A stretch of 48,766 nt of DNA from a virus (IMGVR_UViG_3300044609_000614:1-48766); one strand, 5' to 3'; positions 3,001-26,025 are shown, counted from the stretch's first letter. The notes: generated from the letters alone by a model not told the origin. Numbers and translations are program-made.

Positions 3001-3977
3001 CCTCGGTCAAATGTAAATGTATTAGGAGAGTAACCTACAGATCTTAGACCATATCTACCAAAGTTAGTAGCAGAGTTGGTGATAGATGCATAACCACCAG
3101 ACTGTGTGTATACAGCGTTTGCACAGAAAATTTCAAAACAAGATACTAACTGTGCATATGCATCATTGATAAGTCTCCATGCAGTTCCACCAAATGATAA
3201 AATGGTGAAAGCATTCGCAACCATTGACTTACCTTGTTCTGGTGCAGCACCAGCAACAGGAGTTTCAGATTCCGCCTGAATTGTAGGAGTGTTTGGAGTG
3301 ATTACTTTATCACCATCAATAAGTACACCGTTTGCACCCAAGAATGAGATGAGTGAACAGTTCTGAATATATGGTGAAGTAGTAATTAAAGGTTTAGTAT
3401 TTGATAATCCAGTATAACCTACTCTACTTGTAGTTGTATCAGTTGGATCATCAAATGCAATCGCATAATCAAAAGTATAAGATGGAGCACCATTATTATC
3501 AAGTGCATCCCTAAGAGTAAAACCAGCAAGATATGATTTATTTCTTACACGAAAAACATCTTTTTTATTATTAAGGGGTCTAATAATTACAGATCTAAGA
3601 CTATCACCAATAACAGAAACATCATCTGGAACAATTACAGGATTATCCTCATAGTATTCACCAGAGGCAATCATAATTGTTACAGGCTTAGGCATGCCAG
3701 AAGCAATCTGACATGCTTTCTTGATAGTCTTTACTGGGGTATTTACACCATCTCCAGAATCATTACCATTTTTTGTAGATACAAAAATTCTATTACCACC
3801 CTGAGGATCGGATGGGTTGATTTCTAAAATAGTTTCTACACCGCTGACGTTTTTCTTAAAAAAGATTTTACCGTCAAATGTGTTTAAACCTAATTCACCT
3901 AATTGAAGATCTGAAACGGTGGGAATTTTCCCAGGTACTGCTGATCGTCTTAGACGAATATTAGTGCTCTTTGCCAT
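1..3977 (-). CDS. Large virion/tail-fibre-like structural protein, C-terminus beyond window
   Basis: Open frame from an ATG at 3977 to the left edge (about 1325 codons), so the C-terminus is missing. The start reads MAKSTNIRLRRSAVPGKIPT, a short basic leader also seen at the start of the next gene (IIKLRRTTT), typical of cyanophage tail-fibre or virion surface proteins. Residues 60-200 have a pectin-lyase-like pattern (stretches such as NRIFVSTKNGNDSGDG and PVTIMIASGEYYEDNPVIVP), suggesting a right-handed beta-helix. Later there are repeated modules of the type HGF..GD.V.Y...IGGL....YYV that are also found in the 6611-12220 gene. No catalytic motif was recognised. It is probably a distal tail or fibre component, but the exact role is inferred only from composition and neighbours. 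Confidence 0.75.
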   Translation of the reverse strand, partial: MAKSTNIRLRRSAVPGKIPTVSDLQLGELGLNTFDGKIFFKKNVSGVETILEINPSDPQGGNRIFVSTKNGNDSGDGVNTPVKTIKKACQIASGMPKPVTIMIASGEYYEDNPVIVPDDVSVIGDSLRSVIIRPLNNKKDVFRVRNKSYLAGFTLRDALDNNGAPSYTFDYAIAFDDPTDTTTSRVGYTGLSNTKPLITTSPYIQNCSLISFLGANGVLIDGDKVITPNTPTIQAESETPVAGAAPEQGKSMVANAFTILSFGGTAWRLINDAYAQLVSCFEIFCANAVYTQSGGYASITNSATNFGRYGLRSVGYSPNTFTFDRGFISQAGLVNSKQAITVVGTGRETTNHFITKFFDGNTDITGNYKTPATVLSFNSATAPNTTTNLFTITEHGFLNGSTVLYSDEGNTTIGGLDDQTIYYVKQVTVDTFYLCHDDSLLNIVDITSVGSGTQKLIRNEEEFFIDGIIYSHNKYQTITIPAGTVKNFNVTSTVTGVNGIFTCSGTVYSYTPNTVSTPGSLVVSVDFVSQSGNLVQNLFVPGMTIQDHSLTPQSVTLGTCVSREDLYTTQANISSTVTGQIVQSFSSLIGKGIRLHRPSIINASSHTFEYVGSGIDYNALPQNGGQTEKRYEQVQDLPGRVYCSATNELGDFVVGPYDPTTGRNLITAENRTGNIYFTQKVTVGELSSIKLSLSNVSIDSFSTDIGLGDNEIGGASNSRISTQLAVRSFLNNRLGYFIDKTSSTNSVPGAIVQLNSAGKINSDLIPQSRTFNNFTVTKPNRRLEIFETVPATEVLAGDFVTESYTEGAINAFTFSGTGTGTNTYTSVSASGGSGTGATFNVTVTSGTYSVSASAFGTGYSVGNTLTILGTSLGGASPANDITITITALTTVSNAYVLQSDTISQYIVVDPNQTPDFTNITQVHGVVSDADGSIDVTKGTNGYKSGVINSGVLSNQGDGYNPSTGTKIYFDVPLTGGTGSGAVADITVTAGKVVSISVIKSGSGYTANDSLSANYVDVGGVNPTTAFSYTVNAVEKRLYVNLINQKKKFIASSGVSDFISDANASVKSLTNHTVTEYSFDATATPTGAVDIAADTIVVTTNGALSNGDLIKYDSGAASSIGGILSGESYYVKVTSTVGNDQTIELYTDYGLGAASKINLTSTGIGTHYFYLQSVNVEKNTIRITSHGFSSGDAVLYTSTDAIGGISTGSYYFVGSVTTNNFTLHTSKAAALESVNGLTSTPINLVLLTGTGTISTSTTSTTVTGSSTTFTTQLGSNDLIYSATLVNNSHEYIGKISSVTNDTTAVLAANAKKSINGTFGYIPAGTA

Positions 3978-21342: not shown

Positions 21343-24249
21343 TTATGTGTTAGATAATGGGAAAGTAATATAAGGACTAGCACTACTATGAACTGTACTA
21401 AATTGACTTCCACCTGTAGTAGTTGTAACACCAGCATGTGTAGTTGATGGTTGATTTACAACTGTTGTGGTAGTTCTTCCACCCTGAGTTCTAGATGCAG
21501 CATTTGCTTGAGATTGAGCTTGATTTAAAGTTGTACCTGCAGTGTTTGGTTTTGCTGGTGCAGTCACGGATGGTTCAAGTTTTGTTTTGTCTCTATCTGG
21601 ATATGTAGATTTAACTTCTTTAGTCGATGAATCGCTATCACCACCAGAACCAGTACCTCTCAATGCACCAGTTAAATCTTTAAAGTATCCTGTAATTTTA
21701 GACCAATCAATTGTTTCTGAACTATCTTTTGTCTCTGTATCTTCACTATCTTTATCTGGAGTGTCTTTACTATCACCTCCACCACTAGTTCCAGATGGAG
21801 TTAACCCAGGTCCACCAAAAGTAAAGTGACCACCATGATCACCAGGACCACCATAAGGAGCCCAATTCCAACCATACTTAGATCCATTTTTCTTTATCCA
21901 TTCTTTAGAGGAACCATGAATATCCATTCCAATTCCATAAAGATGTTTTGATCTTGATGCACCCCCCACGTCAGTATTTTTTGATGGACTTCTTTTACTA
22001 CTTGCAATATCAGAACCTTTTACTATTCCACCAGAATCTCTCATCATTTTAGCAAATCCTTCTGCAGCTTCCTTACTGAAAACTACAGGTCTTGGTGGAT
22101 TGTGACCATCAGTAACACCTTTAATAGTGTAACCAGGACCAGTATCAGGAGTACCTTTAGTTGATATCACACCACCAGTGGCAAGTTTCATTATTGCTCC
22201 ACCATTCATAGCGGACATAACTCCATTACCAAACCTAGGGAATAAATCGAAGTTATATTTATCTAGTACTTTTGGTCCCCCAAGACCATCTACTGCATTC
22301 CTGTTTAGTACATACTCACCTCTCTCCAGTTTAGCATTAACAACATCACCTGATCCAGTACCAGGAATAAAAGTTCCAGATACCATTGGTTTCGCATCTG
22401 TAGTATTTGGAGTTATTGGAGATGCTGTAGGAACGTTTTTGTTGATCGGACCTTTAAACTCAGTGACTTTATTTGCTGGTTTTTGTGTTGCAGTTTCGCC
22501 TGCTTTTGCTTCTGGTTTTGCATTTGCATTCGGAGTTGCAGCAGCAGGAGTATTTTGTGGTTGTGGATTTGGTGGAGGATTTTCACCCTTACCATCACTA
22601 GTATTTTTAAAGATTAATGCATTTAGAATATCACCTAATAAACCACGTACAGAATCATCATTTGATTTCTGGAATCCTTCTTTACCTTCTTTCTCATCTC
22701 CCTTCTTTCTCTCTTTAATTGTAGGTGGTTTTCCAAATAATTTAGACAGATCACCCAATCCACCTAGACCACTTAGATCTGCTTTACCTAAGTTCTTGAG
22801 TGCAACATTAACAAGTGATTTCGGAATACCAAATGCTCCTGCAAGCATTCCAATTGCACCAGTAACCAGAGGTCCAACAACAGGAAACTTAGAAGCAATA
22901 CTTCCAATAAGACTGATTACACCAGCACCAATAACAGTGAATGGTAGTAGAAGTAGTTTGATGAATTGAGGTACAATTCTGTTTACATTACTTTGAAGTT
23001 CTTTAGTATCTACACCGATACTTGAACTACCAAGTTTAGATAATGGAATGATTGCTTCTGGACCTGCTTCACCAACAATTGCTTTGGTTGGGTTGGTTAC
23101 AATACCACCCTTTGCAAGTTTTGGTAGGTTCTCATCTTTCTTATTTGCATTATGAATATCACGACCAATCAGTGCAGCGTCAATACCTAATGATGCTGCA
23201 GTTCCAATTCCAGGTATGAATCCTGCGAGACCAGATAATACCTCCCCACCTGCACCCAGCCAGTCTCCCTGACGTGCTCTATCAATTGCGAAGAATCCAC
23301 TAGCAATTGCACCGATGAGAGGAATCTTTTTAATGAGACTTTTACCACCCGCTGCAGCAGCACCCTTAGCACCGATTTTTGCTGCACCCTCCGCAACTCC
23401 CTTTGTCCCCGCTGTTGCCGCTTTGGCACCCGCCTCAGTGGTTGCAGTGGTCGCTGCCTTGGTTGCGGTCTCTGCAGTTGTTTTGGTCGCTTCCTGACCC
23501 GCCTCCTTAGCGGCTGTAGACGCTGCTTTTGCACCATCATCTAGTGCTTCCTTAGCACCCTGTCCAAGTATATTTGGAAGTAAATTAGTGAAGAAATTTG
23601 TGAGTCCACTGAACAAACGCGGAATCATTTTAATTGCATTCACAACAATACTCATACCACCCACAAAAGGCAGTATGGTAAAGATACCTAGTATTCCTTC
23701 TAGTAAACCAAAGAATCTAGTTACACCACCACCATTAACTAATTTGTCAAGTCCTTCAAAGATTCTATCTACACCGAATCCTATTATACCTATGAAGAAC
23801 TTGACTATACCAGCAAAAAATTTAACTATTGCTGCAACTTTTTTCACGTTATTTGGATTAGAAATCCAATCCAATACCTTATAAAGGATAATATATTTTA
23901 TAATGTTTTTAAGAAAATTAAATACACCACCAAAGATATCTTTAGCTTTAGATATAATTTTATCTTTGGCAATATTTGGTTGTAATTTTTTCTTCTCTGA
24001 TTCTGATTCTTCTTGTAATCCAGTCTCTCTTTCTTTTCTGAGATTCTCTTTTCTCTCAGCATCAATTATAGCTTTATATTGCTTTTCGTATACTTTGAAA
24101 ATCTTCTCAAAATTATTTCTAATCGAAGTTAATCTTGAGAGTTGTTCTGATTGTATTTTTGCCTGTTGTTTTGCACTAGAAGATGATAGAAAGCTAAAGA
24201 AACTTCCTAGACTAAAGGACTTAGCATTGATAGGGGAACTTACCGCCAT
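21343..24249 (-). CDS. Tape-measure-like virion protein with M15-type peptidase domain
   Basis: 968 residues, paralogous to the preceding 1004-residue protein: compare LDWISNPNNVKKVAAIVKFF here with LNWISDPKNKEALLGFVKFL there, and the common linker DWSKITGYFKDLTGALRG. It has a long coiled N-terminus, an Ala/Thr/Lys-rich stretch (230-300), the GGIVTNPTKAIVGEAGPEAI motif (381-400) and a Pro/Asn-rich linker (550-620). Residues 700-815 carry an M15/VanY-like D-Ala-D-Ala peptidase pattern: SKHLYGIGMDI (His769, Asp776) and DHGGHFTF (His808), the expected zinc ligands. The ATG overlaps the stop of the small gp51-like gene (TAATG). Likely a tail lumen protein combining tape-measure and wall-opening functions; which of the two paralogues sets tail length cannot be decided here. 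Confidence 0.7.
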   Translation of the reverse strand: MAVSSPINAKSFSLGSFFSFLSSSSAKQQAKIQSEQLSRLTSIRNNFEKIFKVYEKQYKAIIDAERKENLRKERETGLQEESESEKKKLQPNIAKDKIISKAKDIFGGVFNFLKNIIKYIILYKVLDWISNPNNVKKVAAIVKFFAGIVKFFIGIIGFGVDRIFEGLDKLVNGGGVTRFFGLLEGILGIFTILPFVGGMSIVVNAIKMIPRLFSGLTNFFTNLLPNILGQGAKEALDDGAKAASTAAKEAGQEATKTTAETATKAATTATTEAGAKAATAGTKGVAEGAAKIGAKGAAAAGGKSLIKKIPLIGAIASGFFAIDRARQGDWLGAGGEVLSGLAGFIPGIGTAASLGIDAALIGRDIHNANKKDENLPKLAKGGIVTNPTKAIVGEAGPEAIIPLSKLGSSSIGVDTKELQSNVNRIVPQFIKLLLLPFTVIGAGVISLIGSIASKFPVVGPLVTGAIGMLAGAFGIPKSLVNVALKNLGKADLSGLGGLGDLSKLFGKPPTIKERKKGDEKEGKEGFQKSNDDSVRGLLGDILNALIFKNTSDGKGENPPPNPQPQNTPAAATPNANAKPEAKAGETATQKPANKVTEFKGPINKNVPTASPITPNTTDAKPMVSGTFIPGTGSGDVVNAKLERGEYVLNRNAVDGLGGPKVLDKYNFDLFPRFGNGVMSAMNGGAIMKLATGGVISTKGTPDTGPGYTIKGVTDGHNPPRPVVFSKEAAEGFAKMMRDSGGIVKGSDIASSKRSPSKNTDVGGASRSKHLYGIGMDIHGSSKEWIKKNGSKYGWNWAPYGGPGDHGGHFTFGGPGLTPSGTSGGGDSKDTPDKDSEDTETKDSSETIDWSKITGYFKDLTGALRGTGSGGDSDSSTKEVKSTYPDRDKTKLEPSVTAPAKPNTAGTTLNQAQSQANAASRTQGGRTTTTVVNQPSTTHAGVTTTTGGSQFSTVHSSASPYITFPLSNT

Positions 24250-24419
24250 TAGATTTTTTCTTTAGCTTTCTCGTTTTCTTGTTCAACAAATTCAACAAGC
24301 ATGGAAACGTAAATCTCACGTTCCCACGGTATCATGTCTTCTAATTCAGTTAAACTATACTTATGATGTTGCATCATTGCAAAATTAGTTCTGTAATAAT
24401 TTTCCAATGATTCATGCAT
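24249..24419 (-). CDS. Small tail/baseplate assembly protein, gp51-like position; -1 frame extension of gp26-like gene
   Basis: 56 residues from ATG at 24419 (MHESLENYYRTNFAMMQHHK), ending KAKEKI. Its stop shares the A of TAATG with the start of the tape-measure-like gene. The reading frame is open upstream to the slippery sequence at 24431-24440 in the end of the gp26-like gene, in the -1 frame, so it may be made mainly as the C-terminal part of a fusion. Internal phrase YSLTELEDMIPWEREIYVSM is amphipathic and ends acidic, as in gp51-type hub assembly factors and tail-assembly chaperones. Free expression is also possible: the ATG lies 6 bases after the gp26-like stop. Confidence 0.65.
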   Translation of the reverse strand: MHESLENYYRTNFAMMQHHKYSLTELEDMIPWEREIYVSMLVEFVEQENEKAKEKI

Positions 24420-24424
24420 CAAAC

Positions 24425-25138
24425 TTACGCGAAAAAATTTGCAAGACCCTCAATGACTACATCACTTTCAACACCAGTATTAGGATTATGTACCTTAACA
24501 GTATGCTTTAACTTAGGCATAGTTTCAAAGAACTTCTGCACCATCAGAAACTGTTCTGTGTTTAGAGATTCTAGGAAGTCAGTTACTTCTTTCTTGGTAA
24601 AATTCTTTACCTCATACACATCTTCACCTTCATAAATTTGTTCAATACAGGTGGATGCAATTTCAAACACATCATCAATCTCAGAATTACCATCACCAAA
24701 ATTGTTCTTGATGAACATATCTAGATTTGGATATTTCATGACCATACCAACAGAATCATTTAGTTTAATGTTCTTATCGTGATCATCAGATTTAGATACT
24801 TTAATCTCATCAATATTAATTACAACATCTACATATGTTTCATTGTCATCTGGGCATGGAAGACGAAGATTGATTTCTTCACCTACTGACTTACCACGAA
24901 TATTCAAGAAAAGATATTCGATATCAAACAATGCAAGTTCATCAATTTTAACTTTGCTAATCACACAATTTTTTAGGATTGTCTTAATCGCATTAGTGAT
25001 CTGTTTCTCATCTTCAGACTCCATTGCAATGAGAAGAATCTTTTCTTCTTTTACTAGGAATGGTCTGTATTTAATAGTCTGTCCAGTGGAAGGTAAATCC
25101 AACTCATATGTTGGTGAAACCAATTTAGGTAAAGGCAT
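24425..25138 (-). CDS. 26: Baseplate hub assembly protein, T4 gp26-like
   Basis: 237 residues. The N-terminus (MPLPKLVSPTYELDLPSTGQ, then IKYRPFLVKEEKILLIAMES) is the characteristic opening of the T4 base-plate protein family that includes gp26, which helps assemble the central hub. The middle contains VGEEINLRLPCPDDNETYVD. The last codons GCA AAT TTT TTC GCG TAA contain two overlapping slippery heptamers in frame, which suggests a -1 frameshift into the following small gene. A late promoter (25169-25176) and a strong ribosome site (AAGGAG) precede the ATG. Confidence 0.85.
   Translation of the reverse strand: MPLPKLVSPTYELDLPSTGQTIKYRPFLVKEEKILLIAMESEDEKQITNAIKTILKNCVISKVKIDELALFDIEYLFLNIRGKSVGEEINLRLPCPDDNETYVDVVINIDEIKVSKSDDHDKNIKLNDSVGMVMKYPNLDMFIKNNFGDGNSEIDDVFEIASTCIEQIYEGEDVYEVKNFTKKEVTDFLESLNTEQFLMVQKFFETMPKLKHTVKVHNPNTGVESDVVIEGLANFFA
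24431..24440 (-). promoter_or_regulatory. Candidate programmed -1 frameshift site A AAT TTT TTC
   Basis: Minus strand AAATTTTTTC in frame as (GC)A AAT TTT TTC. Both A AAT TTT and T TTT TTC obey the X XXY YYZ rule. A -1 shift bypasses the TAA and reads TTT CGC GTA AGT TTG ATG CAT GAA into the frame of the 56-residue gene without a stop. The position, just before the tape-measure genes, is where tailed phages place such shifts. Confidence 0.6.
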
Positions 25139-25179: not shown

Positions 25180-26025
25180 TTACTTTGGAAGTGAAGAACT
25201 CGGTGTGCCAGAGAATAGACTTGATCCAGGTTCTAGACTATTAACTAAATGATACTTATATTCAAATGTAACATTAACCCTTAACAACTGGGAAGAACCT
25301 GCAGATAAAGGTAGTGATGATACTGAAGTTGGAAATGCATCTATCAATCTGATTGAATAATTCGCCTTGGAGTTTGGGAAAAATATCTTTTTACCTCCAG
25401 CATTATTAACTTCAACTTGTTCATTCAATGTTCTACTAATATTATCAAGCATACTATCTATTTCAGTCACTCCTGTTTTAGATGTATTGTTTGCATAACC
25501 ATTACCAAATCTTTCAAACTTTACAATATAGATATCCGCAACATAATCATCAGGATACATCACTCTACCTATCTGATTACCAGCATTTTTAAATCCTGAA
25601 GTATTAGTTCCAGAAATTCCAGAGTCTGAGGTTGACATACCATAAATGAAGTTCAACCATGCATCAAAGATACTCTTTTGTTTTGATGCACCATCCATAA
25701 TAAATGAAACACTTACTTCACTGTAGATATTACTATGTGCATATTTAAAAGTTGGTGAACCATTAATTCTATACTCACCCGTTGCAATTTGCAAACCAGG
25801 AATATTAACTTCGTCGCAGTAATAAGATGCTCTTTCTATCCAATCATTTCCTCCAACTTCACCAATGTAAGATTGTAATTGTCCATTTGTTGATGGAGGA
25901 AAAATACCAATTCCATAAAAATTGCTAAGACCTACTCCATACCTTTTGAGTAAAGAGTTGAAATCTTTAACTTGTTGGGCTGTCCTTAAAGTTTCTCTAC
26001 TAAATTTTCCTTGTGCTAAGGCCAT
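25180..26025 (-). CDS. Tail-tube-fold baseplate protein, possibly gp54-like tube initiator
   Basis: 281 residues. Features of the tail-tube fold are visible: CDEVNIPGLQIATGEYRING, then FKYAHSNIYSEVSVSFIMDG, then KSIFDAWLNFIYG, then MYPDDYVADIYIVKFERFG; gp19-type tube proteins show the same order of a PG turn, a strand pair, an 'F..W...I' helix and a 'Y.DDY..D..I' strand. The extra length over gp19 (about 160-170 residues) and the place between hub assembly and head-completion genes suggest the baseplate tube initiator (T4 gp54) rather than the major tube protein. That specific call is an inference; T4 gp54 is about 320 residues. Confidence 0.55.
   Translation of the reverse strand: MALAQGKFSRETLRTAQQVKDFNSLLKRYGVGLSNFYGIGIFPPSTNGQLQSYIGEVGGNDWIERASYYCDEVNIPGLQIATGEYRINGSPTFKYAHSNIYSEVSVSFIMDGASKQKSIFDAWLNFIYGMSTSDSGISGTNTSGFKNAGNQIGRVMYPDDYVADIYIVKFERFGNGYANNTSKTGVTEIDSMLDNISRTLNEQVEVNNAGGKKIFFPNSKANYSIRLIDAFPTSVSSLPLSAGSSQLLRVNVTFEYKYHLVNSLEPGSSLFSGTPSSSLPK

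Follow-up and report, generated by a model that had tools for sequence, protein, structure and literature searches.

T4-like phages are found everywhere in the ocean, with cyanophages as one of their major groups. In the window studied here, the 48,766-nucleotide sequence IMGVR_UViG_3300044609_000614 of a marine cyanobacterial virus, the gene for a gp26-like protein ends in a run of Ts and is overlapped in the -1 frame by a small open reading frame (ORF) usually annotated as gp51. Is this ORF a gene of its own, or is it read as the end of gp26? The comparison presented below makes it very probable that a programmed -1 ribosomal frameshift at T TTT TTC yields two tail assembly chaperones (TACs) from one gene.

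Layout of the proposed chaperone locus

The features of the locus are as follows, in the direction of transcription.

25180..26025, minus strand: tail tube protein gene, directly upstream of gp26 (Pfam Phage_TTP_2, 1.8e-16; phrog_45, tail tube, 3.5e-32)
24425..25138, minus strand: gp26-like protein gene, 237 aa, read here as the short form of the tail assembly chaperone (TAC-N, lambda G analogue)
24447..24451, minus strand: Shine-Dalgarno (SD)-like GAGGG, 9 nt before the heptamer, candidate upstream stimulator
24431..24437, minus strand: slippery heptamer T TTT TTC in the gp26 frame, its last base one codon before the stop
24425..24427, minus strand: gp26 stop codon TAA, bypassed by a -1 shift as read from the sequence
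24252..24431, minus strand: -1 frame extension, 60 aa, RVSLMHESLENYY...KEKI, usually annotated as gp51
24392..24430, minus strand: hairpin region, with a covarying 10-bp stem in most relatives and no strong hairpin in the window itself
21343..24249, minus strand: 968-aa ORF, probable tape measure protein, with weak tape measure matches

The 3' end of gp26 reads GCA AAT TTT TTC GCG TAA. From T TTT TTC, the -1 frame (RVSLMHESLENYY...KEKI) reads through 60 codons without a stop and ends at a TAA (24251-24249), which overlaps the ATG of the 968-aa ORF as TAATG (24247-24251). The sequence thus bears out the initial annotation, which had described an in-frame slip run at the gp26 end and a -1 frame open to the tape measure start; the 56-residue gene that it placed there is the portion of the -1 frame after a TTG or ATG (24249-24422). 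Through the TAATG overlap, the probable tape measure gene starts where the -1 frame ends; with the two coupled in this way, its translation may depend on the long product. Profile matches of the 968-aa ORF to tail length tape measure families were weak (phrog_10093, 1.7e-05; phrog_5448, 6.8e-05), and it also matched phrog_1200 (6e-33). The gene order is tail tube, gp26, extension, and probable tape measure, which places gp26 between the tail tube and a tape measure identified by weak matches. A peptidase M15-like stretch lies near residues 748-782 of the 968-aa ORF (Peptidase_M15_3, 0.00012). Weak Pfam hits, among them one of the small ORF to Stealth_CR2 (E 0.033), fell below the cut-off and were disregarded.

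Under the proposed mechanism, most ribosomes would end at the gp26 stop and release the short form of 237 aa; a minority would slip by -1 on the two Phe codons, pass the stop, and read 60 more codons, giving a gp26-gp51 fusion of 296 aa. If roles are divided as in lambda G/GT, the tape measure protein would be coated by the short form and tail tube subunits brought in by the extension, and both forms would depart before virion maturation. From the evidence assembled here we infer the occurrence of the shift, its rate, and the chaperone roles of both products.

Conservation of the slip site

To the first comparison set (80 IMG/VR relatives plus two isolates) were added isolates from the Straboviridae, Kyanoviridae, and Ackermannviridae and unclassified phages of Pseudomonas, Stenotrophomonas, Sinorhizobium, Agrobacterium, Delftia, Vibrio, and Desulfovibrio. 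A second set of 84 loci came from searches with the pf16 protein and from bacterial genome bins. Scans for close relatives by seed protein returned two loci for KVP40, two for DLP6, and none for the Desulfovibrio phage. Comparison of these sequences shows that the slip site is kept and that the -1 frame stays open. T TTT TTY lies in the gp26 frame in 100 of 103 loci of the first set and isolates. It is likewise in frame in all 84 loci of the second set, 1, 2, or 8 codons ahead of the stop, with a -1 frame that is open for at least 50 codons or is ended by the contig end (84/84). Among relatives with distinct complete extensions, a count that left out the NTTTTC branch described below, the gp26 end carries the heptamer without exception (132/132).

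TTT is the usual Phe codon, yet T TTT TTY, which is present at the gp26 end in 80/80 dereplicated first-set loci, is missing from the other 18,284 gp26 codon positions (0/18,284); in the second set, three loci carry one extra in-frame copy. Against the expectation from amino acids and codon usage, the fixed T has a log10 P of about -18 and the fixed TTT one of about -14; both values overstate significance because the sequences share ancestry. The codon ahead of TTT may be AGT, TCT, AAT, GAT, GCT, or GGT and is fixed only in its third base, T. The locus thus has an X XXY YYZ heptamer in the zero frame that is kept at synonymous positions, as is characteristic of programmed -1 frameshift sites, and the alignment came out as the initial annotation had anticipated, with the slip run conserved at synonymous sites and the -1 frame open. 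That annotation had proposed two overlapping heptamers. T TTT TTC is conserved and stands; A AAT TTT was rejected as a second slip site, since the codon preceding TTT varies and this heptamer is consequently unconserved among relatives.

The three of the 103 loci that do not carry T TTT TTY (CBA120, 2050H1, and Vibrio K357) show NTTTTC at this place, with the -1 frame open into a related domain; this may possibly be a different, one-tRNA slip site in the Ackermannviridae and Vibrio K357. NTTTTC was located at the gp26 3' end in L103, L102, L101, and L118-L132 (Ackermannviridae and Vibrio K357). The C-terminal domain of these loci is mostly unannotated, and in Kuttervirus it has no ATG near its start. 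In a marine pf16-related group (L154, L169, L181, L184, L190-L197, and L218), the gp26 stop lies 8 codons past the heptamer rather than 1, and the two frames consequently have a longer overlap.

One further sequence, L063 (a 236-kb contig, positions 3001-3894), encodes an in-frame gp26-gp51 fusion that has no slip site and reads TCT TTT TGG TTA GGA. It shows an apparent 2-nt loss in the slip run and has no second PF12322 copy, and a +1 shift at its slip run would meet a stop at once. The fusion is either a real variant or a sequence error; if real, at least one sequence does without the frameshift arrangement.

RNA signals and start codons

In the 45 nt that follow the slip codon, the RNA folds more stably than shuffled sequences with unchanged -1 protein and codon usage (mean z -3.27, n = 78; about 0 to -1.1 at other offsets). 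In the main cyanophage clade, a 10-bp stem (GUAUGGCUCA/UGAGUCAUAC) lies 6 nt downstream of the heptamer. Its two arms covary: double-change cells number 42, compared with 14.6 expected from shuffles and 1-13 when the pairing is slid as a control; at one pair, UA (29), GC (20), and AU (11) all occur, and a wobble position tracks its amino-acid-changing partner. Sequence comparison thus shows RNA pairing after the slip site to be under selection in the main clade. Different stems near the main-clade hairpin position were found in S-N03, S-CRM01, P-HM1, S-CAM4, and OLIVR6. The window and its close relatives L003-L005 have no stable hairpin at the usual spacing (window z there, +0.36), which rules out the hairpin as a feature of all these phages. 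Some 30 nt further downstream, the window has another hairpin, which appears unconserved across L001-L005. Structure at 5-9 nt downstream, seen in the main clade and not in the window or L003-L005, is no absolute requirement for frameshifting.

Upstream of the slip site, Glu codons are GAG at 57/68 positions against a background of 32%, a preference that creates GAGGG 9 nt ahead of the heptamer. Predicted anti-SD pairing at this site averages -7.4 kcal/mol, compared with -2.3 kcal/mol at control positions. We see about an even chance that in marine cyanophages these elements form a three-part, dnaX-like signal for the tail chaperone that has not been described before, comprising an SD 9 nt upstream, an invariant T TTT TTC, and a main-clade hairpin 6 nt downstream that hides the 'gene 51' start, with NTTTTC in the Ackermannviridae-like branch.

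Another way into the -1 frame would be transcriptional slippage, in which the polymerase and not the ribosome slips on the T6 run. Such a route would fit the retention of six Ts in nearly all relatives and the 2-nt deletion in the T run of L063. Efficient transcriptional slippage in bacteria normally requires longer runs, however, and it needs neither the T TTT TTY phase nor an upstream SD-like element nor a stem at 6 nt, each of which carries signs of selection. We consider slippage during transcription very improbable and ribosomal frameshifting the better account of the locus.

The distribution of start codons bears on whether the small ORF could instead be a gene in its own right (gp51), with translation beginning at its own start through reinitiation or coupling directly past the gp26 stop, as in the GenBank annotation. 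The window has TTG and ATG (TTGATG) 4-7 nt past the gp26 stop, where reinitiation could also yield a free small protein, and most of the main clade has an ATG or TTG 3-10 nt past the stop. Several records annotate the small ORF as its own CDS, and Sullivan et al. (2010) took it as a reduced gp51 (PMC3037559). Start codons have been lost in many relatives, however: in 42 of the 132 distinct complete extensions, the -1 frame is devoid of ATG, GTG, and TTG ahead of the conserved domain, so these extensions cannot start by themselves in the usual way. Where the main clade does have an apparent 'gene 51' ATG, it is buried in the stem of the hairpin; at about 24 nt from this ATG, the SD-like GAGGG is too distant for initiation but well placed for slipping. 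Separate lineages, among them P-HM1, P-SSM4, S-CAM4, and L001, have R-I-A-L or similar residues right after the shift, and from the sequence nothing except a shift would be expected to translate them. A separate gene also leaves the invariance of the heptamer without explanation, and in T4 gp51 the two domains are fused. We regard independent initiation as the sole route to the small domain as highly unlikely.

The two processes may coexist, with frameshifting supplying an essential long form and reinitiation some free small domain where an ATG or TTG is kept. This is compatible with the frameshift explanation, not exclusive of it, and many loci, including the window with its TTGATG, do keep a start codon past the stop. 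Start codons are nonetheless unconserved across the family, which as a whole cannot therefore require a free small protein, and we think joint production rather unlikely, if less so than either alternative above.

Predicted products and comparison with known systems

The window gp26 matches Pfam PF12322 (T4_baseplate, E 1.9e-72) and phrog_150 (1e-79); the -1 extension matches phrog_634, 'baseplate hub assembly catalyst' (4e-27), and the C-terminal end of phrog_150. T4 gp51 itself matches phrog_150 over residues 3-248, and PF12322 covers T4 gp26 as well as residues 1-201 of T4 gp51. Over 248 columns, the frameshift fusion and T4 gp51 align from one end to the other (hhalign E 6e-18), a comparison that shows the two to be homologous at the sequence level. 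The extension aligns to the last ~50 residues of T4 gp51, and the free small ORF matches the final part alone. Only the frameshifted product has the gp26-like N-terminal domain and the C-terminal domain in one chain, as in the T4 gp51 family. We read the -1 extension as the C-terminal domain of the long form (TAC-NC, lambda T analogue). Genomes with the slip site have one PF12322 copy; T4, CC31, Aes012, and Campylobacter WX1 have two, and their short copy ends without a slip site.

An AF2 model of gp26 (pLDDT 86) had as its best three VIA-align matches 3fgx, HK97 gp13 (2ob9), and YqbN (3klu), with Z-scores of 7.3-7.8 against 4.7 for the next. We take 3fgx and 3klu to belong to the tail assembly chaperone family. 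The matches span gp26 residues 1-95 and lend moderate support to a predicted TAC-N fold of the N-terminal part, although Z-scores below 8 over about 85 aligned residues are by themselves not decisive. Foldseek alone gave no match below E 0.8 for the gp26 model, and a sequence search of the PDB with gp26 gave none. In an AF2 model of the L063 fusion, the C-terminal domain was helical with low confidence (pLDDT 33-67); short extension rows could not be aligned to this fusion, which accounts for the low pLDDT, and we make no claim about its fold.

Sullivan et al. (2010) described cyanophage and vibriophage gp51 as being without its first ~200 residues (PMC3037559). Our analysis indicates that nothing is missing from this truncated-looking protein and that its first part is gp26, joined to it by frameshifting. 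A review by Atkins et al. (2016) treats T4 as an exception to the conserved G-T frameshifting of tail chaperones (PMC5009743). The initial annotation knew of no report of frameshifting in T4-like cyanophages; this has to be amended, because papers citing Vladimirov et al. (2022) credit that study with the idea. As cited there, Vladimirov et al. identified tail assembly chaperones in T4-like phages (PMC10885494, PMC12846349). One citing paper attributes to them poly-T slip signals in the TAC-N genes of T4-like phages (PMC12846349), and the other states that some T4-like phages use a short gene and a longer fusion gene, not frameshifting (PMC10885494). According to these citations, the concept is already in print; what the present analysis may add is the covarying hairpin, the SD-like element, and the absence of start codons in many relatives. 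None of the annotated isolate records examined has a joined CDS that marks the shift. The C-terminal extension was missed by annotation in Aeromonas P19, AsFcp_4, and S-CAM4 (L098, L088, and L108). The chaperone locus of the window is a well-supported, mostly unannotated case of known TAC frameshifting. Its recognition corrects a frequent annotation error and provides a well-defined site for tests on cyanobacterial ribosomes.

The initial annotation had drawn a parallel with lambda G/GT, and this holds for gene order and fold and for the way the fused product matches T4 gp51. Two-form chaperones of this sort serve tail building in lambda and in many other phages. Both loci run from tail tube through short chaperone and -1 extension to tape measure (a probable one in the window), with overlapping frames. 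They differ in the slip site (GGGAAAG in lambda, also -1, versus T TTT TTC here) and in the size of the short form, which at 237 aa is larger than that of lambda. The main clade further differs from lambda in having a covarying hairpin and, upstream, an SD-like element, and profile searches gave no sequence similarity to lambda G/GT. HK97 gp13 (2ob9) shares the fold of the ~85 N-terminal residues of the gp26 model (Z 7.6, rmsd 4.1 Å); its solved chain has 107 residues, whereas gp26 adds a part of ~150 residues.

The frameshift signal of Escherichia coli dnaX combines an internal SD ~10 nt upstream, an X XXY YYZ site, and a hairpin ~6 nt downstream. The cyanophage signal resembles it in how it would work, but the dnaX shift gives a shorter product, and the genes are unrelated.

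As cited, the study of Vladimirov, Gautam, and Davidson (2022) deals with the same matter, the TAC genes of T4-like phages. T4 itself has gp26 and gp51, baseplate hub assembly chaperones that both carry PF12322, and gp51 consists of a gp26 domain plus the same C-terminal domain as here. In T4, however, the two forms come from two genes, and the gp26 end has no slip site. T4 gp26 and gp51 can accordingly be placed as related genes that supply both forms without slipping.
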